From Clostridium pasteurianum (GTDB lineage Bacteria; Bacillota; Clostridia; Clostridiales; Clostridiaceae), in assembly GCF_001705235.1 (NCBI RefSeq), contig NZ_MCGV01000001.1, positions 2,046,001 through 2,110,000 on the forward strand: 64,000 nucleotides of DNA. Reading direction: 5' to 3'. Numbering within the stretch: the stretch's first letter is position 1; each line of letters starts with the position of its first letter. The notes under the pieces are model-generated. The model worked only from the letters and a program-made list of their open reading frames with translations. It was not told where the DNA came from and searched no databases. This document shows positions 48,987 through 57,361 of the stretch, piece by piece. A program made the translations under genes and the position numbers.

Positions 48987-49165
48987 TCATAATTTATATT
49001 GTAGCTAATTGACTCAAATTTACAAGGTGTAGATAAGACAAAGCCGCAATTGCTTTAGACAATTAAATACTATCTTTTTCTTAACAATCTTTACAGGCAT
49101 CTTAACTTTTTCTAAACTTTTAAGCACTATACTAAAAGCATAAAAAATATTTAGAGGTGATAATT

Positions 49166-49438
49166 TTGCCATATGCAGGAATGGTACTACACAGACAAAA
49201 CAAATATATAGCAGCCTTTAACTCTGCTGGTGCAATTGATAAAGAACATGCTGTAACTCTTGAAAAGATTCGTATTAAAAAAGATTCTATTTTTGATAAA
49301 ATGATTGCTTTAGGGGTATTTTTTGAATGTGAAAATGGATTTTTTTATATGAATGCAGATACTGCTGAGAAACTGAAGAATAACAGAAGTGGTTTCCATA
49401 TATGGAGGTTAGAAAAAAATAATAATGTAACTAAATAA
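49166..49438 (+). CDS. Small protein of unknown function
   Basis: A TTG start at 49166, with AGAGGTG 7 bases upstream, gives a 90-residue protein beginning MPYAGMVLHRQNKYIAAFNS. A GTG at 49157 is less well placed. It has no signal or membrane segment. The spacing of AVTLEKIRIKKDSIFDKM and LGVFFECENGFFYMNADTAE suggests one compact alpha/beta domain. I have a general memory of similar small clostridial proteins, but no function. It lies alone before the palindrome at 49437. Confidence 0.6.
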   Translation: MPYAGMVLHRQNKYIAAFNSAGAIDKEHAVTLEKIRIKKDSIFDKMIALGVFFECENGFFYMNADTAEKLKNNRSGFHIWRLEKNNNVTK

Positions 49439-49515
49439 AAAAATTAAGAATTAAGAATGAATGATAATTTTCCAGAGCAAAGCGGCGGAAAATCATCATT
49501 CATTCTTAATTTTTT
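49437..49515. repeat. Long palindrome acting as bidirectional terminator; MITE-like
   Basis: AATTAAGAATGAATGAT on the left pairs with ATCATTCATTCTTAATT on the right, continuing through an ATTTTCC/GGAAAAT stem around a GC-rich loop. A- and T-runs flank both ends. It separates the small unknown gene from the convergent hyp operon. The ATTAAGAATGA arms resemble small dispersed palindromic elements common in bacteria. Confidence 0.75.
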
Positions 49516-49542: not shown

Positions 49543-50547
49543 CTAGCATATTCTAGGAAGCAATTCTCCCCCGGGCTGAGGCAATAATGTTTCAGCGCCA
49601 ATTTCCGTTTTTACCATAACACGACCTGGCATATCAGAGGTTACCTCACCAATAATAGCAGCATTTGCAGAATATTTACCCTTATGTAATGTTTCAACAA
49701 TCTTTGGGGCAATTTCCTTTGGTGCAAAAACCACAAGCCTTCCCTCACATGCAAGATACAGTGGTTCTAAACCAAGCATACCGCATACACCTTTTACGCC
49801 ATCTGCTACAGGTATGTTCTTTGAATCAAGTTTAATTCCAACCTTGCTCTGCTCAGCAATTTCATATAAAACTGTACCGACACCTCCACGTGTAGCATCT
49901 CTCATTACGTGAATGTCCTTTGATGTATCAAGCATAGACTTTACTGTTCCCCAAAGCGGTGCGCAATCACTGGTTACATCCGCATCAATTCCAAACTCAT
50001 TTCGTGCCAGTAAAACAGTGCAGCCATGTCTTCCTATATCACCAGTTACAATAACTGCATCGCCTGGTTTAGCATTAAAGCCAGAGGTACTAACTCCGTC
50101 CATAAGTTGTCCAATTCCTGTTGTAGTTATAAATACACCATCAACTTGTCCTTTTCCAGCAACCTTTGTGTCTCCAGCTACTATTTTAACTCCTACTTCC
50201 TTTGCAGTCTTTTCCATAGCTGCTGCAATTTTTTCTAACTTGTCCATGAGAAAACCCTCTTCAATAACAAAGGCACATGTTAAATACAGCGGCTTTGCTC
50301 CCATGCAGGACAGATCATTTACCGTACCACAAATACTAAGTTTACCGATGTTTCCACCTGGAAATTCTGATGGAGAAACAATAAATCCATCTGTTGTAAA
50401 TGCTAGCTTTCCTCCATTAATATTAAGTACCGCAGCATCATCTGCTGTAAAATCAGGATTTGAAAAGTGAGCCTTAAAAACCTGATCTATTAATTCTGAT
50501 GTTTGTCTTCCTCCAGCTCCATGAGCCAGTGTAACTGTTTTATCCAT
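49543..50547 (-). CDS. hypE: HypE, carbamoyl dehydratase making the thiocyanate for Fe-CN ligands
   Basis: The 334-residue protein has the PurM/AIR-synthase-like fold (GAGGRQTSELI; DDAAVLNINGGKLAFTTDGF; DATRGGVGTVL). It ends PRIC, so the essential C-terminal Cys334, which carries the carbamoyl and then cyanide group, is intact. With ATP it turns HypF-made thiocarboxamide into thiocyanate. Its start overlaps hypD by 8 bases. It is the last gene of the nitrogenase-like/hyp operon. Confidence 0.95.
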   Translation of the reverse strand: MDKTVTLAHGAGGRQTSELIDQVFKAHFSNPDFTADDAAVLNINGGKLAFTTDGFIVSPSEFPGGNIGKLSICGTVNDLSCMGAKPLYLTCAFVIEEGFLMDKLEKIAAAMEKTAKEVGVKIVAGDTKVAGKGQVDGVFITTTGIGQLMDGVSTSGFNAKPGDAVIVTGDIGRHGCTVLLARNEFGIDADVTSDCAPLWGTVKSMLDTSKDIHVMRDATRGGVGTVLYEIAEQSKVGIKLDSKNIPVADGVKGVCGMLGLEPLYLACEGRLVVFAPKEIAPKIVETLHKGKYSANAAIIGEVTSDMPGRVMVKTEIGAETLLPQPGGELLPRIC

Positions 50548-51598
50548 TTATATTTCCTCCATACTGATAATATGCTGAACATGCACCCTCATTAGATACC
50601 ATGCAGGCTCCAATAGGATGCAGTGGTGTACATCCTTTTCCAAATACTTTACAATCTGATGGTTTACATTTTCCTTGCAAAACATCACCACAGCGGCATG
50701 CCGGATTGCTTCTTCCTTTTACCTCAGGCAAATCAAACTTAATTCTTGCATCAAACTCTTTATATTCCTCTTTAAGTTTATTACCAGAAGCCTTTATAAT
50801 TCCAAGACCTCTCCATTCAGAATCACAGCTCTCCATGATTTCAGACATAAGAGCCTGCGCCGATTTACTGCCCTCACGTGTTACAACTCTCGGATAACAA
50901 TTTTTAAAGAAACTGCCGCCTTCCTTAGACTTTGTAATTATTACAGCAAGTGCTGTCATGATTTCATTTGCAGTAAAACCTGTTATTACTCCGCTAACAC
51001 CTTCACTTACTAGCTCTTCACATAGCTTTGTACCTGTAATTGCATTAACATGACCTGGATATAAAAATGCATCTGCACTGCTCTTTAAAGCCTTGTATGC
51101 TCCTGGCATGGTTTTGTTTGCAGTAAGCAGTGAAAAATTTGTAAGTTCCGCAGCTTTTGCCTTCTTTACTGCTAAGCAGCTGGCAGGCGTTGTTGTTTCA
51201 AATCCTACTGATAAAAATACTACCTGTTCATTAAGGTGCTCTTTAGCATACTCATAAGCATCAATAGGTGAATATACTACTTTAACTTTAGCACCCTTAG
51301 ACCTAGCTCCTGCAAGATTCATCTCTGAGCCAGGTACTCTTACTAAATCTCCAAAGGTACATATTGTTGCGTTATGGTCAAGTGCCAGCATAATAGCTTC
51401 ATCAATAAATCCAACAGGGGTAACACATACTGGACATCCCGGTCCTGATATCAGTTCAATATTCCTTGGTATGATGCTTCTTATTCCAAGCCTAAATATC
51501 TCATGAGTATGGGTTCCACAAACTTCCATTATGCGAAGCTTAGGACCATCGTAAGTCTCAATAATCTCCTTTGCGGTTTTTCTTATGTTCTCAGCCAT
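50540..51598 (-). CDS. hypD: HypD, Fe-S scaffold for Fe(CN)2CO assembly
   Basis: The 352-residue protein keeps the conserved Cys27 in EVCGTHTHEIFR and the redox pair Cys55/Cys58 in GPGCPVCVTP. The C-terminal cysteine cluster of the [4Fe-4S] site runs from NPACRCGDVLQGKCKPSDC to GACSAYYQYG. HypD with HypC holds the iron on which CN and CO ligands are placed. It overlaps hypC by one base and hypE by eight. All key residues are present, so Fe(CN)2CO assembly looks functional. Confidence 0.95.
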   Translation of the reverse strand: MAENIRKTAKEIIETYDGPKLRIMEVCGTHTHEIFRLGIRSIIPRNIELISGPGCPVCVTPVGFIDEAIMLALDHNATICTFGDLVRVPGSEMNLAGARSKGAKVKVVYSPIDAYEYAKEHLNEQVVFLSVGFETTTPASCLAVKKAKAAELTNFSLLTANKTMPGAYKALKSSADAFLYPGHVNAITGTKLCEELVSEGVSGVITGFTANEIMTALAVIITKSKEGGSFFKNCYPRVVTREGSKSAQALMSEIMESCDSEWRGLGIIKASGNKLKEEYKEFDARIKFDLPEVKGRSNPACRCGDVLQGKCKPSDCKVFGKGCTPLHPIGACMVSNEGACSAYYQYGGNING

Positions 51599-51804
51599 TA
51601 TAATTCCTCCATGATTTCATCTGTTTCTTTTTTGTCATCGTTTGTGATTTTAGCAATTGCAATTCCCGCATGAACCATAACATAATCGCCTGGCTCCAGT
51701 TCATCTATTAATTCTGCTGATACCTCTCTTTTTGCTCCTGAAGCATCAATAACTGCAACACCATCTTTAATATTTACAACCTTTGCTGGTAAACCTACGC
51801 ACAT
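51598..51804 (-). CDS. hypC: HypC-family chaperone
   Basis: The 68-residue protein begins MCVGLPAKVV, with the Cys2 that binds the iron intermediate after Met removal. It contains GDYVMVHAGIAIAKI, the conserved strand with His45. HypC normally carries Fe(CN)2CO from HypD to a hydrogenase large subunit. No such subunit is encoded in the window, so its client may be different here. It lies 2 bases after hypF and overlaps hypD by one. Confidence 0.94.
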   Translation of the reverse strand: MCVGLPAKVVNIKDGVAVIDASGAKREVSAELIDELEPGDYVMVHAGIAIAKITNDDKKETDEIMEEL

Positions 51805-51806
51805 AA

Positions 51807-54128
51807 TTATTCTCCTTTCTTAACTTTGTTTATATAATTCATTGCCGCTGCTGCCTGTCCTAGTGCAATTCCACCATCATTTGGCGGCAGTAAACTATGG
51901 GTTAAAACTTTAAATCCTAATTTTTCTAAGCGTTCTACACTCATTTTCAGCAATAACTGGTTTTGGTATACTCCTCCACTTAATGCTACAGTGTTAATTC
52001 CACTCTTCTTTGAAGCATATGCACATCCAGCCGCAATCATGTCTGATAATTTATCATGGAAAAAATAAGCAAGCATATGATTATCTTCTCCAGATAGCAT
52101 TTTCTCTATGATTTCCTTTACTAAAACATCCGTTGCCATAATTAACTTTCCATATGAATTTTCATAGACAAGATTAGAAAGTTCAGTGTCATCATATTTT
52201 CCCTTATAATCCTCTGCTGCAAACTGGATGGCACTAGAAGCTTCCCCTTCAAAAGAAGACTTATTTCTAATATTCAAAATAGCACTTACGGCATCAAATA
52301 AACGCCCTGCACTTGTAGATATTATGCTGTTTATTTTATTATCATGCACGGCAAACTGTACCTTGCAATTTCTTTCATCGCATAATTTAAGTCTCTTTAC
52401 AATTTCAGCTGACTTTTGTTTATCCTTGTATATGCTATAAATCATAGATACCGCAATTCGCCAGCCTTCTTTAGCTGACAAATCACCGCCAACCTGCAAA
52501 AAAGGTTTTATACTTCCAAGCCTTTCAAAGCCATCATAATGGGCTTTCAGTAACTCACCACCCCAGATTGTCCCATCTGTCCCGTATCCTGTTCCATCAA
52601 AAGAAACACCTATAACTGGCTCAGAATAATCATTTTCAGCCATACAGGATAAGATATGCGCATAATGATGCTGAACCTTTAAAACAGGGATCCCAATTTC
52701 ATTAGCAACATAAGTAGTATTATACTTTGGATGCATATCGCATGCCACAATAGTTGGCTTAGACTCAAGTAAAGTTTCCATCCTTGTAATGGACTCCTTT
52801 AAAGCTTTTACTGTTCTTAAATCTCCCATATCGCCAACGTACGGTGACTGATAAAACAAATCATTTTTACCTATGCAAAATGAATTTTTTAGCTCTCCTC
52901 CAACTGCCAGTACTTCTCCTTTAAATCCTTTTGAAAGCATAAAAGGCAGCGGTGCGTATCCTCTAGAACGCCTTATCATATACGGTTTTCCACGAAAGAA
53001 ATCCATAACAGAATCATCTACACGCATGCGAATCTTTCGATTATTCGATAACATTACATCACACATATTTGATAATTCTTCTGCCGCATCCCTGTCGTCT
53101 CTACATATTGGCGCACCTGATGCATTGCCACTTGTCATGATAAGGCAATCTGGCATAACTATATCATCATCATATGTAAATATAAGAAGCTGAATAGGAG
53201 CATATGGAAGCATTACTCCGACCTTAAGATTGCAAGGAGCAACGGCGCTGCACAACTTTCCATTTGATTTTTTCTTTAAAAGTACAATTGGCTTCTGGTG
53301 TCCATCCAGTACTTTTCTTTGAACTTCTGTAACTTCTTCGCATTCACGCTTTACAGTTTCCATACTCTTCATCATAACTGCAAATGGTTTTGCTGGTCTT
53401 GTCTTTAATTTTCTAAGTCTCTCTACTGCTTTTTCATTTGATGCATCACAGCAAAGATGGAAACCTCCAATTCCCTTTATAGCTGCAATGCCTCCGTCAT
53501 GAATTATCTTCCTCGTATAAGTAATTGCATCCCTGCCACGTTCTTTTCTCCCAATGAGATAAACCTCTGGTCCACATTCATTGCAGCATACTGGCTGTGC
53601 GTCATACCTCCTAGTTTCAGGGTGCGTGTATTCATATTCACATTCAGGACACATTTTAAATTCACCCATGCTAGTGCGCACACGATCATATGGCATGGAA
53701 TCTAAAATAGTAAGCCTTGGCCCGCAGCATGTACAATTTATAAATGGATGAAGATATCTCCTGTCATTCTTATCAAAGAGTTCCTTTGTACATTCTGGAC
53801 AGATAGCAATATCAGGAGATACAAAAATTTCGCCCTTCTCTTTTTCGCTTTCAATAATTTCAAAACCATTAAATTTTTTTGCTTCATTTACCTCATGTAC
53901 ATCAACCTTTAATATGGATGAACGCTTTGGAGGATTATTTTTTAAATCGTACATAAATCCTTTCAGGTTACTACTTGTTCCCTGAGCCCATACCTCTACA
54001 TAAGACCCTTTGTTGCAAACACTACCTTTTACGTTATTTTTAGACGCATGTCTGCTCACTGTAGGCCTGAAGCCAACTCCCTGAACGATGCCGTATATTC
54101 TAATTATGAAAGTTTTATATTCTTCCAC
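51807..54128 (-). CDS. hypF: HypF carbamoyltransferase
   Basis: The 773-residue protein has all HypF modules. The acylphosphatase domain (GIVQGVGFRPTVSRHA) covers residues 1-90. Two zinc fingers (CPECTKEL...CTCCGPR; CPECEYEY...CCNECGP) lie at about 105-185. A YrdC-like domain lies at about 195-385 (GIAAIKGIGGFHLCCDASNE). The Kae1-like domain at about 400-770 has VQHHYAHILSCMAEN and the terminal ALSGGVYQN. It makes carbamoyl-AMP from carbamoyl phosphate and hands the carbamoyl to HypE. It lies 6 bases after the NifK-like gene. Confidence 0.95.
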   Translation of the reverse strand: MEEYKTFIIRIYGIVQGVGFRPTVSRHASKNNVKGSVCNKGSYVEVWAQGTSSNLKGFMYDLKNNPPKRSSILKVDVHEVNEAKKFNGFEIIESEKEKGEIFVSPDIAICPECTKELFDKNDRRYLHPFINCTCCGPRLTILDSMPYDRVRTSMGEFKMCPECEYEYTHPETRRYDAQPVCCNECGPEVYLIGRKERGRDAITYTRKIIHDGGIAAIKGIGGFHLCCDASNEKAVERLRKLKTRPAKPFAVMMKSMETVKRECEEVTEVQRKVLDGHQKPIVLLKKKSNGKLCSAVAPCNLKVGVMLPYAPIQLLIFTYDDDIVMPDCLIMTSGNASGAPICRDDRDAAEELSNMCDVMLSNNRKIRMRVDDSVMDFFRGKPYMIRRSRGYAPLPFMLSKGFKGEVLAVGGELKNSFCIGKNDLFYQSPYVGDMGDLRTVKALKESITRMETLLESKPTIVACDMHPKYNTTYVANEIGIPVLKVQHHYAHILSCMAENDYSEPVIGVSFDGTGYGTDGTIWGGELLKAHYDGFERLGSIKPFLQVGGDLSAKEGWRIAVSMIYSIYKDKQKSAEIVKRLKLCDERNCKVQFAVHDNKINSIISTSAGRLFDAVSAILNIRNKSSFEGEASSAIQFAAEDYKGKYDDTELSNLVYENSYGKLIMATDVLVKEIIEKMLSGEDNHMLAYFFHDKLSDMIAAGCAYASKKSGINTVALSGGVYQNQLLLKMSVERLEKLGFKVLTHSLLPPNDGGIALGQAAAAMNYINKVKKGE

Positions 54129-54134
54129 TTCATA

Positions 54135-55178
54135 TCACATCTTTCCTGAAACCGCAAAATGTGGTGCATCTATATACTTTCCTGTAAAATCCGGTATTGC
54201 ACGTTTCAATATATTATCTCCTACAATCACATCATAATTTCCCTGTTCTACGAGTCTTACAAACTGGTCTTCCTCTGTAAGGGAAATATCCTGAACTTCT
54301 TTCAATTCACTCTTTAGCATAAACCATGAGGCAACTGTTACATCTGAACTCACCATTCTGCGTATTGCATCCCTTATAGAATTTGCTATAACCTGCTGAT
54401 GTATTATTAGGATTTTTTTATCCTCAAAATCTTTAATCATTTCATCCTTTAATATGGATGAAGTCAAAGGATAATTAACTTCATAAGGTGTACCAAATCT
54501 TTCTTTTAAATACTGTGCTGCCTTTAACCCTGAAGGTGCTACCACAATATTTTTCGCAGCATTTCCAGCGGCTTCTACCTGTGACAAGTCCGCTCCCATT
54601 CCGTAGCAGTAAACATTTTTATAGCCCTGCGCTTTTAGCATATCCTTTATTTTATCTGCTGCTCCTAAGTCACTCATATCAAGGGGAATTGTTCCTATTA
54701 CACCGACGCTTCCTTTATCTACTGCAATATCATCCTTTGCAAAAGTTTTAAAGATTTCAATATAAGCTTTCTCAGCCCCTACATCATATAAATCCATGCC
54801 AGTAGTTTCTATAGTAAGAACGGGTATTTCAATTTTCTTTTCTGCCATTTTCTTTATTGCATTATAATCAGTACCAATAACCGATGGCACCGGAGTTCCT
54901 ATTACTGCTGCAAATTTTGCTTGAAGCTTCTTAGCAGCATCTGCAAGCTTTGCCACAAGCCTGTCATCACGTCCAAGTATAGCATCCATGTCACGAAGAC
55001 CAGCACTAAAAATGGCACTTTTCTCTGTGACCCATCTAGGCTCGTCAAAGCCGCATACATTTCCAGCACATCCTCCTGCATCACAAATAACTATAATTCC
55101 GCCCAGGCTGTAAAGAACTGATGCAGCACCAGATTGATCAGGTGCAAAAGGCGCTATATACTTCCTTAATCCTTTCAT
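54135..55178 (-). CDS. NifK/NifN-like (nitrogenase component 1 superfamily) protein
   Basis: The 347-residue protein is short for NifK, which exceeds 450 residues. It keeps the component 1 fold signs: YSLGGIIVICDAGGCAGNVC, with Cys32, Cys37 and Cys42, corresponds to the GSQGC P-cluster loop. VIGTPVPSVIGTDYNAIKK corresponds to the TCxxEVIGDD segment, but without its Cys. The first ligand position also lacks Cys. It starts at the base directly after the NifD-like stop and lies 6 bases before hypF. I infer that it pairs with the 55179 protein around a simpler Fe-S cluster. Confidence 0.8.
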   Translation of the reverse strand: MKGLRKYIAPFAPDQSGAASVLYSLGGIIVICDAGGCAGNVCGFDEPRWVTEKSAIFSAGLRDMDAILGRDDRLVAKLADAAKKLQAKFAAVIGTPVPSVIGTDYNAIKKMAEKKIEIPVLTIETTGMDLYDVGAEKAYIEIFKTFAKDDIAVDKGSVGVIGTIPLDMSDLGAADKIKDMLKAQGYKNVYCYGMGADLSQVEAAGNAAKNIVVAPSGLKAAQYLKERFGTPYEVNYPLTSSILKDEMIKDFEDKKILIIHQQVIANSIRDAIRRMVSSDVTVASWFMLKSELKEVQDISLTEEDQFVRLVEQGNYDVIVGDNILKRAIPDFTGKYIDAPHFAVSGKM

Positions 55179-56483
55179 TTATGCCTCCTTTCTAGAGCAA
55201 TCCAGTGAATATTTAAGCTCCTCAAATAATTTTTTTATGCCAGCATATCCAAATGGCTGAATGTCCTCATTCCACGGTACATTTACGCAGTCTGGATGAT
55301 AATACTCGGCATCTTTGCCAATGGTAATATCAAGCTTATCTTCACTGCAAGCATAATAAATCATAGTAGGCTCAAGATTAGAATAAATCTTAGTTTCAGG
55401 GCTTAATTTGGCAATTTTTCTAACATAAACAAAATCTTCAGCATTTGGACTAGCATATATTTCAGCCACCTTAAATCCATATCTTATTAGTGCTAAAGAT
55501 AGCTCAAAAGAGTTAGCATTCATTGCTTCCCCTACTGCAAAAATTATTCCTTTATAATCACTCTTCAAATCATCTATAGCCTTTTGTGCTTCATCATAAT
55601 ACTTTTCATCATCAAATTTTACATTGAGTGCATTTGCAAAAATACTGTACTGTTTCTGAACCTTATCTATCTGGTACAATCTTGCAAGCTCTAATGCTGG
55701 AATGTTCAGCCTTTTCATAATGTCCTGTGCTGCAAATCTTGCCTCTGGATTTAACACAAGGTTAAAGTTTGCCTCCGCCATACTCATATAGTCGTCAAAA
55801 TCCTTACAGCGAGAGATTTCATTTACTTTTTTTACGCCAATGTGCTTTAATAAAGCATACAATTCGCAATCATCTACAAGTGGAGCAAAATGCCCAAGTA
55901 TGTTAACTGTATCCGCCTTTTTCTTCATAGGTTTAAGAAGGGAATAAATAGACTGTCTTACATGTACCATAGGTGGTTTTCTGCCTTCCCTTGTCAGTGC
56001 ATACATATAGCAAGGAAGTACGGGAATATTAACCCTCTCCTCAGCTTTTCTGCAAACACGCTCCATATCAGTTCCGAGAAGTGCATCAACACATGTAATA
56101 CAAATCATGACTACTGACGGTGCAGTTTTAGCGCATTTACAAATCTCTTCTACCGCCTGTGGAATCTTTTTTAGATGACTTCCCGTTACAATATCAGTTT
56201 CATCCATGGTTAAATAAAAAATTCTGTCACCATATCCGCTGGACTCGCTTAATGTTGTTGTATTTCTACCACAGCATCCGGGAGCTACTAAAAGCATAAT
56301 TGACCCCGGTATTGCAAGTGCTGCACGTTTAACCCCAAACCCCTGTGCTCCAGGTGAATTAAAGGAAAGTGTTGCAGGAGAGCTATAAATCAAATGAGTA
56401 TTTGAAATAAGCTCCGAAGGAATGTTATCTTTACCTGCTTCGGCTAAATTTTCTGCTGTAATATAATATGACTCTTTTTTCAT
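55179..56483 (-). CDS. NifD/NifE-like (nitrogenase component 1 superfamily) protein
   Basis: The 434-residue protein aligns by eye with the NifD P-cluster region. [20 protein letters not shown] leads to Cys70-Cys71 in [11 protein letters not shown] (matching NifD Cys88). [16 protein letters not shown] holds Cys131 (matching NifD Cys154). The first P-cluster Cys (NifD Cys62) is absent, the aligned stretch being NSPGAQG. No FeMo-cofactor Cys275/His442 equivalents are visible; the C-terminal region reads [15 protein letters not shown]. It overlaps the NifH-like gene by four bases. It is not a nitrogen-fixing NifD, and its substrate is unknown. Confidence 0.8.
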
Positions 56484-57241
56484 TTTACTTCCTCACTTTT
56501 AAGTAATAACTTAGCTAATTCAAAAAAACGCTGGCTGACTTCAATGTCAGGATCTCCTTCAATGACTGTTTTTCCCATATCCTCAAACTTATTAATATCT
56601 TTGCTTCTAGGAATATCCCCTACAATTGGAAGCTTAACTTTGTCTGCAAATTCCTTTACTTTTTCTTCTTCATTTTCAATATTTCTATGATTAAATACAA
56701 TGCCAAACACCTTTGCATAACTTCTGTCTTCAAAATTTTTAACTGCACTGTTTATATTGTTAGCTGCATAAAGAGCCATTTTTTCACCAGAAGTAACAAT
56801 AAGTACTTTTTCAGCATATCCCTCACGAATAGGCGCCGCAAAACCTCCGCAGACTACATCTCCTAAGACATCATAAAGTACAACATCTGGTTTATAAGTT
56901 TCAAAAAGCTTTAAGTCTTCTAATAAATTAAACGTAGCTATAATGCCCCTTCCAGCGCAGCCAAGTCCTGGTGTAGGTCCTCCAGTTTCTATACACAAAA
57001 CACCTCCAAAACCAATTTTCGAAATGTCCTCTATTTTTTCTGGCGCTTCATCAAATTCTCTCATATAATTCATTACAGGCATAAGTGGTTTTCCACCAAG
57101 CAAGTTAATATTTGAATCTGCTTTAGGATCACATCCTATCTGAATAACCTTTTTTCCGAGTCTCGCAAAGGCTGCTGACAAATTACTAGTAATTGTAGAT
57201 TTTCCAATACCGCCTTTCCCGTATATAGCAACTTTTAACAT
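56480..57241 (-). CDS. NifH-like Fe-protein ATPase
   Basis: The 253-residue protein has Walker [10 protein letters not shown] (residues 8-16) and switch segments IGCDPKADS and [11 protein letters not shown]. Both cysteines that bridge the intersubunit [4Fe-4S] cluster are present: Cys95 in GLGCAGRG and Cys131 in VVCGGF. It is therefore a competent ATP-driven one-electron donor of the NifH/BchL/CfbC type. It is slightly shorter than NifH (about 270-295). First gene of the seven-gene operon, with GGGAGGA upstream of ATG 57241. It overlaps the NifD-like gene by four bases. Confidence 0.9.
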
Positions 57242-57320: not shown

Positions 57321-57350
57321 AAAAAAGCTCCTCCCAAATTTGGAAAGAGC
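57321..57350 (-). terminator. Leader hairpin before the nitrogenase-like operon (AraC terminator or attenuator)
   Basis: On the minus strand GCTC pairs with GAGC, with wobble extension and a central CCAAATTTGG, and TTTTTT follows at once. It lies between the putative promoter (57362-57390) and the NifH-like start. It either ends the AraC transcript coming from the right or attenuates the operon. Confidence 0.65.
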
Positions 57351-57361
57351 CTAATACGGTC

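Follow-up and report, generated by a model that had tools for sequence, protein, structure and literature searches.

The nflHDK1-hypFCDE operon

A stretch of 64,000 nucleotides from Clostridium pasteurianum (contig NZ_MCGV01000001.1, positions 2,046,001 to 2,110,000; hereafter the window) contains a run of seven leftward genes in which a NifH-like Fe protein and two nitrogenase component 1-like subunits are followed by HypF, HypC, HypD and HypE (Table 1). We found that this block is associated with genomes of Clostridia that contain HydF and lack HydG, the enzyme that releases CO and CN from tyrosine. The labels NflH, NflD1 and NflK1 for the nitrogenase-like proteins of the block (module 1), and NflHDK2 for a second such set (module 2), were coined in this analysis.

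A preliminary description, made from the sequence alone, had reported these seven genes, and its coordinates, gene order and six junctions all hold: nflH and nflD overlap by 4 bases, nflD and nflK abut (gap 0), 6 bases separate nflK from hypF and 2 separate hypF from hypC, and the hypC/hypD and hypD/hypE overlaps are of 1 and 8 bases. The gene identities it gave agree with Pfam and NCBIfam, which return Fer4_NifH for NflH (291.7 bits), Oxidored_nitro for the component 1-like pair (115.6 and 83.8 bits) and all four Hyp proteins above their NCBIfam cut-offs. NflH, NflD1 and NflK1 do not reach the cut-off of any NCBIfam model for Nif, Bch or Cfb that they match; NflH scores 306.6 bits against 394.35 for nifH, and NflD1 and NflK1 score 75.4 and 48.6 bits against 505.1 for nifE. 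The further statement that hydrogenase genes are lacking is correct for the operon and incorrect for the genome, which carries a [NiFe]-hydrogenase large subunit on its second contig, C2.

Table 1. Features of the operon and its flanks (window positions)
Feature	Position	Strand	Description
nflH1	56480..57241	-	253 amino acids; NifH-like ATP-dependent Fe protein; P-loop and both [4Fe-4S] Cys motifs
nflD1	55179..56483	-	434 amino acids; nitrogenase component 1-like subunit; clade D1
nflK1	54135..55178	-	347 amino acids; nitrogenase component 1-like partner subunit
hypF	51807..54128	-	773 amino acids; GTG start; carbamoyltransferase; TIGR00143 765.7 bits (cut-off 466.1)
hypC	51598..51804	-	68 amino acids, short HypC; N-terminal MC and VMVHAG
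hypD	50540..51598	-	352 amino acids; Fe(CN)/CO scaffold; the genome's only hypD; inside the block clade
hypE	49543..50547	-	334 amino acids; cyanide-forming dehydratase; C-terminal PRIC
Inverted repeat, ~25 bp	49449..49511	-	just 3' of hypE; found by eye; one mismatch, 13-nt loop
Terminator-like hairpin and T-run	57325..57352	-	~84 nt before nflH; from terminator consensus scan

Conservation, gene neighbourhood and distribution against HydG

A search of genome contigs with NflD1 gave 12 loci (L numbers denote loci and G numbers genomes of this analysis), the carriers being C. ljungdahlii, C. ragsdalei, C. thailandense, several Lachnospiraceae and other gut or rumen Bacillota; they include Lachnospiraceae bacterium C10, which is not labelled as a metagenome-assembled genome, and a Faecalitalea metagenome-assembled genome. 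The order nflHDK-hypFCDE is the same in all 12 as far as the contigs extend (L013 stops after nflK, L014 after hypC and L015 within hypD), with a single long frame in place of nflD and nflK in L016. In a class sample of 393 Clostridia genomes, each at least 90% complete, NflD1 exceeds 600 bits in 13, the window's own genome (G000) included, from five families (f1, f2, f24, f36 and f48), and all remaining matches listed are below 245 bits, giving two score classes. The preliminary description had proposed that two chemistries are joined in one operon and had named conservation beyond close strains as a test; both the order in the 12 loci and the spread over 13 genomes in five families bear it out. 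The block order is conserved far beyond chance, and a chance junction of two operons is ruled out by its being kept across families.

All nine loci that extend beyond hypE (L005-L012 and L016) carry the second nitrogenase-like module 3' of it. In five of these (L008-L010, L012 and L016) hypE is separated from this module by a TM1266-type gene, the family taking its name from the iron-only hydrogenase system; L012 continues into hydF and L011 into hydE. The fullest run in the class sample, nflHDK1-hypFCDE-TM1266-nflH2D2K2-hydF-hydE, is that of G358, whose HydE, HydF and TM1266 proteins are above NCBIfam cut-offs. Runs without nflH2, some also without hydE, are found in G131, G264, G185, G062, G150 and G280 (on two contigs), and G192 has such genes in a different order; hydF belongs to the block's gene run in these seven genomes and in G358, that is in 8 of the 12 HydG-less block genomes. 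In G150 an [FeFe]-hydrogenase catalytic gene (PF02906, 316 bits) ends ~325 bp before nflH, and the HydG-bearing G360 has TM1266-hydE-hydG-hydF instead. Given these runs, the linkage in G150 and the order in G360, the block therefore sits, in many carriers, in an [FeFe]-hydrogenase maturation neighbourhood at the place of hydG. By BLAST, HydE is present in G000 and in ten of the 12 genomes G001-G012, with none in G009 and with G003 examined only at its match.

HydG exceeds its cut-off in 242 of the 393 genomes and HydF is found in 261, one of the HydF matches (G023, which has HydG) falling under the family cut-off. All 13 block genomes of the sample contain HydF and 12 of them lack HydG; among genomes G000-G012, HydG is absent from 11 and present in G000 and G003. 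NflD1 is found in 12/25 genomes with HydF and no HydG versus 1/236 with both, the one being G000 (Fisher p 4e-13), and NflD2 in 18/25 versus 1/236 (only G000 found; p 3e-21), p-values that are overstated because the genomes are related. The NflD2 profile was run on 80 genomes, including those 25 and 43 HydG controls, and in the other genomes of the class NflD2 is judged absent by the NflD1 profile at E<=1e-20; among the 25, the NflD2 profile added none beyond the NflD1 profile. Four of the controls (G075, G129, G143 and G243) were included knowingly as carriers of relatives, which score 194-348 bits against 460 for the lowest counted NflD2.

Swaps are also seen within genera. Genus g56 has six genomes with the block and no HydG and four with HydG and no block, g7 has two and one, respectively, and in g180 one genome has NflD2 without HydG and another HydG without any NflD match. 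On a HydF tree of 55 rows, which we chose from the HydF matches and loci of this analysis, the presence of NflD2 needs at least six changes on well-supported branches, and in six independent pairs HydG is opposite in 5.2 and the same in 0.0 (averages). Loss of HydG from poor assemblies only was rejected as an explanation: G118, a single 2.82-Mb contig, has the block, HydG below the cut-off or none, and no [NiFe] match.

The pattern touches a puzzle in acetogens. Our search did not detect HydG in either C. ljungdahlii or C. ragsdalei, and a published survey reports none, by its criteria, in these two or in C. coskatii, C. sp. AWRP and C. carboxidivorans, counting five of eight species without HydG, with no straightforward explanation, and naming HydG in the three others (PMC9431212). 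The same survey describes five species that have HypCDEF but no HypA/B, reports that C. carboxidivorans has two HypCDE sets, and asks whether acetogens incorporate the ligands by mechanisms not yet identified; the word nitrogenase appears once in its text (PMC9431212). C. ljungdahlii is said to use the hydrogenases Hym and Hfn for H2 oxidation, and Hfn is taken to be the same as the C. autoethanogenum enzyme Hyt, which a reference title calls an [FeFe]-hydrogenase (PMC5640608). Tyrosine is reported as the source of every CO and CN ligand of the H-cluster, five in all (PMC3105041), and another paper calls the anaerobic source of CO unresolved (PMC12134894). A term-based search of the main texts of transposon, mutagenesis and transcriptome papers on C. 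autoethanogenum and C. ljungdahlii found no passage on these genes.

Since it stands where HydG is missing in many species, the block looks like a second, so far undescribed bacterial route to the iron-CO-cyanide site of [FeFe]-hydrogenases. We consider it probable that it forms the first half of a HydG-independent pathway to the diiron cofactor of the H-cluster. The preliminary description knew of no system of such composition, and we too found no title or abstract describing the combination in the literature searched, from whose coverage subscription journals and preprints largely fall outside.

Hyp and nitrogenase-like proteins

An alternative reading takes the block for a [NiFe]-hydrogenase maturation operon in which NflHDK makes CO for Fe(CN)2CO under anoxia. 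It would account for G000, which has only this HypD and a [NiFe] large subunit, and for the Clostridium genomes G001-G003, which likewise have the large subunit, and nitrogenase Fe protein alone has been reported to reduce CO2 (in part of PMC9571451). The distribution of HypD makes it unlikely. HypD is found in 71 of the 393 genomes, the 13 with the block and 58 others, and a [NiFe]/Ech-type large-subunit match was obtained in all 55 of those others that were tested (the 58 less G265, G326 and G395; many matches are short, at profile positions 1-70, and Ech-like). None of these 55 has a strong NflD1 match, so [NiFe] maturation needs no block. No PF00374 match occurs in 11 of the 12 block genomes without HydG; in the remaining one, G358, a short Ech-type match is accompanied by a second HypD, and the two HypDs of this genome are split across the two sides of the HypD tree. 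In the loci read, moreover, linkage goes to hydF, hydE and TM1266. A plain [NiFe] maturation operon was rejected on the distribution of HypD and [NiFe] matches.

The HypD tree, built with HypDs from 39 of the 58 non-block genomes and the second HypD of G358, places 22 block HypDs in one clade (100/100), the window's among them, apart from the 40 [NiFe]/Ech-linked sequences. Functional residues are kept in the block rows: PRIC of HypE in 22/22, CGTH and GPxCxVC of HypD in 23/23, and MCVG and VMVHAG of HypC in 24/24 (the last read from printed sequences). Among the genomes G001-G012, seven have no [NiFe] large-subunit match. Because of the absence of large subunits, the separate HypD clade and these residues, we conclude that the cyanide and iron-scaffold machinery is kept without a detectable [NiFe]-hydrogenase and that the block's Hyp set is mostly not for [NiFe]-hydrogenase. 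The tabulation of the block against hydrogenase large subunits that the preliminary description had called for came out at 11 of the 12 HydG-less carriers without a match. Its interpretation, that a NifH-driven complex may act on an Fe-CN/CO species or that Hyp proteins may feed a new cofactor, was right that two chemistries are joined and that Hyp works mostly outside [NiFe] maturation; it missed the second NflHDK module, the linkage to TM1266, HydF, HydE and (in G150) [FeFe]-hydrogenase, and the near-exclusion of HydG.

The host genome, G000, comprises 4.68 Mb in two contigs, with the window on C1 and a C2 of 191 kb. Its one [NiFe] large subunit (C2:179982-181235) is flanked by small-subunit-like, protease-like and cytochrome b5-like genes, named from their sequences. 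A HypA-like protein of 88 amino acids (L003:12152-12418, on C2) adjoins the [NiFe] genes; it is under the HypA cut-off and without CxxC motifs. Since the window's hypD is the only one in G000, an active [NiFe] enzyme there would have to draw on the block's hyp set as well. Dependence of a sole [NiFe]-hydrogenase on this hyp set, which the preliminary description had named as telling against its proposal, is accordingly true of G000; it does not extend to the family. G000 also encodes HydE, HydF and HydG. Besides the block it has four linked component-1 genes, whose size and order suggest NifDKEN, together with two more nitrogenase-like pairs, one of them on C2 in the order TM1266-nflH2-nflD2-nflK2. 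At L124:5290-9232 (C1, ~1.09 Mb) the genome carries a NifH/D/K-like set whose two component-1 proteins are both below all NCBIfam cut-offs matched. The block as an N2-fixing nitrogenase was rejected, in view of the separate presumed NifDKEN cluster and of missing ligands.

Among NflH proteins of both modules the Cys motif GCAGRG is kept in 38 and DVVCGGF in all 39 of 39 rows. NflD1 and NflD2 form two well-supported clades in a D tree drawn without the rows of L013, L016 and L124 and those of 350 residues or fewer; apart from the window's own, the rows of both clades come from hyp- or hyd-linked or HydG-less genomes. The two proteins share 25% identity over 400 alignment columns, and the solved structures closest to them in sequence, though weakly so, are those of nitrogenase alpha chains and NifE. 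In the alignment (Azotobacter numbering), the equivalent of Cys88 is kept in D1, D2, K1 and K2 and that of Cys154 in D1 and D2 only, and the first P-cluster Cys is missing from all four, so the full P-cluster set is not present. The Cys that binds the iron-molybdenum cofactor (FeMoco; NifD Cys275 equivalent) is absent, being replaced by H or N in D1 and by various residues in D2; the two G000 proteins taken for NifD and NifE carry Cys there. Further cysteines, at 70, 128 and 158, are invariant in ten D1 rows. These residues suggest that NflDK likely holds a bridging Fe-S cluster and is not likely to bind a FeMoco-type cofactor at the usual ligand.

With their changed Cys ligands and without the FeMoco Cys, the two DK-like complexes could hold a Hyp-fed cofactor, and NflDK might then be a new enzyme with an Fe(CN)xCO cofactor, its link to HydE and HydF reflecting only shared regulation. 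We regard this as quite improbable; it leaves the loss of HydG in 12 of the 13 block genomes and the swaps within genera unexplained. It is highly improbable that NflHDK is an unrelated reductase of the methylthio-alkane, isethionate or tetrapyrrole type that shares a promoter with hyp by chance: such reductases are known from the Mar and Nfl work (parts of PMC10418091 and PMC11423573) and relatives of NflHDK2 do occur without hyp or hydE nearby, but five families share the gene order and, G000 aside, every row of clades D1 and D2 comes from a hyp- or hyd-linked or HydG-less genome.

From the HydE/HydF/HydG system the carriers of the block keep HydE, HydF and the TM1266 regulator, often linked, and the presumed product is the same diiron cofactor; they differ in that HydG is absent from most of them, with NflHDK1, HypFCDE and NflHDK2 in the operon instead. 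The four Hyp proteins match those of [NiFe] systems in scores and in CN- and Fe-binding residues, whereas their HypD clade is separate, HypC is short, a [NiFe] large subunit is mostly lacking and nitrogenase-like genes share the operon. An Fe protein with two related component-1 pairs recalls NifHDK/NifEN, but the block proteins are far below Nif cut-offs, have no FeMoco Cys equivalent and retain a partial P-cluster Cys set. The two-component architecture is shared with CfbCD, BchNB, BchYZ, MarHDK and the isethionate NflHDK; no matched Cfb or Bch cut-off is passed and the genomic context is different, the comparison by sequence having covered the Cfb and Bch models. No sulfur genes were found among the flank genes scanned around block and NflHDK2 loci.

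At the flanks of the operon, the inverted repeat beyond hypE is a possible operon terminator; it is absent from the terminator consensus scan, whose loop limit its 13-nt loop exceeds. The hairpin upstream of nflH may be a leader attenuator or the end of the upstream AraC-type gene, a weak call because five such sites occur in the region against 5.0 expected by chance. Past the operon end lies an open frame of 93 amino acids (window 49157-49438, + strand) with no family match, and an Rfam scan of the window returned nothing at gathering score.

A candidate HydG-independent route

The chemistry we infer for the route would run in four steps. Formation of cyanide by HypE and HypF is established, as is assembly of Fe, CN and CO on HypC-HypD for [NiFe]-hydrogenases. 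Judging from this chemistry and the kept residues, HypF and HypE would convert carbamoyl phosphate to enzyme-bound cyanide, and HypC-HypD would hold the iron that receives CN and CO. In a third step the ATP-driven Fe protein NflH would power two nitrogenase-like complexes. One NflDK complex would probably make CO, perhaps from CO2, and/or reduce or remodel the Fe-CN-CO unit or supply low-potential reduction; the other would probably serve as a scaffold or transfer site, like NifEN beside NifDK. The reported reduction of CO2 by Fe protein alone makes NflHDK1 a plausible CO source by analogy. Finally, the product would take the place of HydG's Fe(CO)2(CN) synthon and pass to HydE and HydF, which would finish the [2Fe] site; entry at this stage is suggested because HydE and HydF are retained.

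Several observations weigh against this pathway or narrow it. The Hyp product, Fe(CN)2CO, has two CN and one CO per iron and the H-cluster one CN per iron, so the ligand number must be adjusted, perhaps by NflHDK2. The block is not always a replacement for HydG, since G000 (493 bits, both Cys motifs present) and C. thailandense (683 bits) have HydG; because G000 keeps it, the block there is at most a parallel route, and probably does run in parallel with HydG. NflD1 and NflD2 are both absent from seven of the 25 HydF-bearing genomes without HydG. Loci L188, L189 and L190 (G152, G255 and G300) have TM1266, hydE and hydF, no hydG and no nitrogenase-like match nearby, which suggests a third situation, either a gap or a further replacement; among the seven, gaps are possible in G300, G339 and G373 because members of the same genera have HydG. 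In three of the 12 HydG-less block genomes (G118, G287 and G383) hydF lies away from the block, its position having been read in 11 of them (G318 was left out). The sign test on independent pairs is borderline (median p 0.0625), and [NiFe] matches are full-length in G000-G003 and short in G008 and G009. The acetogen survey also suggests that, in every species except C. autoethanogenum, atypical radical-SAM proteins might be HydGs (PMC9431212).

The Hyp proteins themselves are not always present, a further point on that side. Six HydG-less genomes (G073, G138, G207, G330, G337 and G399) carry NflHDK2 but neither HypD nor a strong NflD1 match, and in all four scanned (G138, G207, G337 and G399) parts of a FecCD/BtuC-type ATP-binding cassette (ABC) importer lie beside NflHDK2, so Hyp is dispensable in the importer variant. 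In G207 and G337, hydE and hydF are in the same run as NflHDK2. On account of these six genomes, NflHDK2 looks like the constant part of HydG-less systems with NflHDK, and NflHDK1-Hyp and the importer look like alternatives; it fits that either makes, or fetches, a precursor for NflHDK2. At L102:12269-13321 (G138) and L105:2187-3293 (G337) a BtuD/FecE-type importer ATPase beside nflHDK2 carries a TM1266 regulator domain joined to its C-terminal part, a fusion that may couple import to hydrogenase maturation.

NflD2 nests among relatives at L107-L112, around which neither hyp nor hydE was matched; a weak GTPase match to HydF is seen at L110. At L107, L109-L112 and L185, the last a plasmid of Treponema saccharophilum, NflHDK adjoins a three-gene importer-like run, again with no hyp or hydE matches; the importer is identified by annotation in L185 and by gene size in the others. 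These are probable relatives of the ancestor of NflHDK2. In the plasmid collection, NflD2 has only a distant relative in T. saccharophilum among the matches listed, and NflD1 the same relative and NifE-type matches at 23-29%.

We put forward only tentatively a wider scheme, which in this full form we rather doubt, of an Fe-CO-CN factory independent of HydG and tyrosine. In it, NflHDK would use ATP to reduce a substrate such as CO2 to CO, HypF and HypE would make cyanide, and HypC and HypD would join the two to iron, giving a synthon for [FeFe]-hydrogenases by way of HydE and HydF and, in hosts like G000, for [NiFe]-hydrogenase as well; in the Hyp-less variant the importer would fetch a precursor. 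Were this scheme true, nitrogenase-like enzymes would gain a role in hydrogenase cofactor assembly, and the source of the CO ligand in anaerobes would be answered.

The block joins nitrogenase-like machinery with that for [NiFe]- and [FeFe]-hydrogenase assembly, and is a concrete candidate for the missing route to the H-cluster ligands in HydG-less acetogens. With it, the question of the anaerobic CO source becomes testable in tractable gas-fermenting clostridia.

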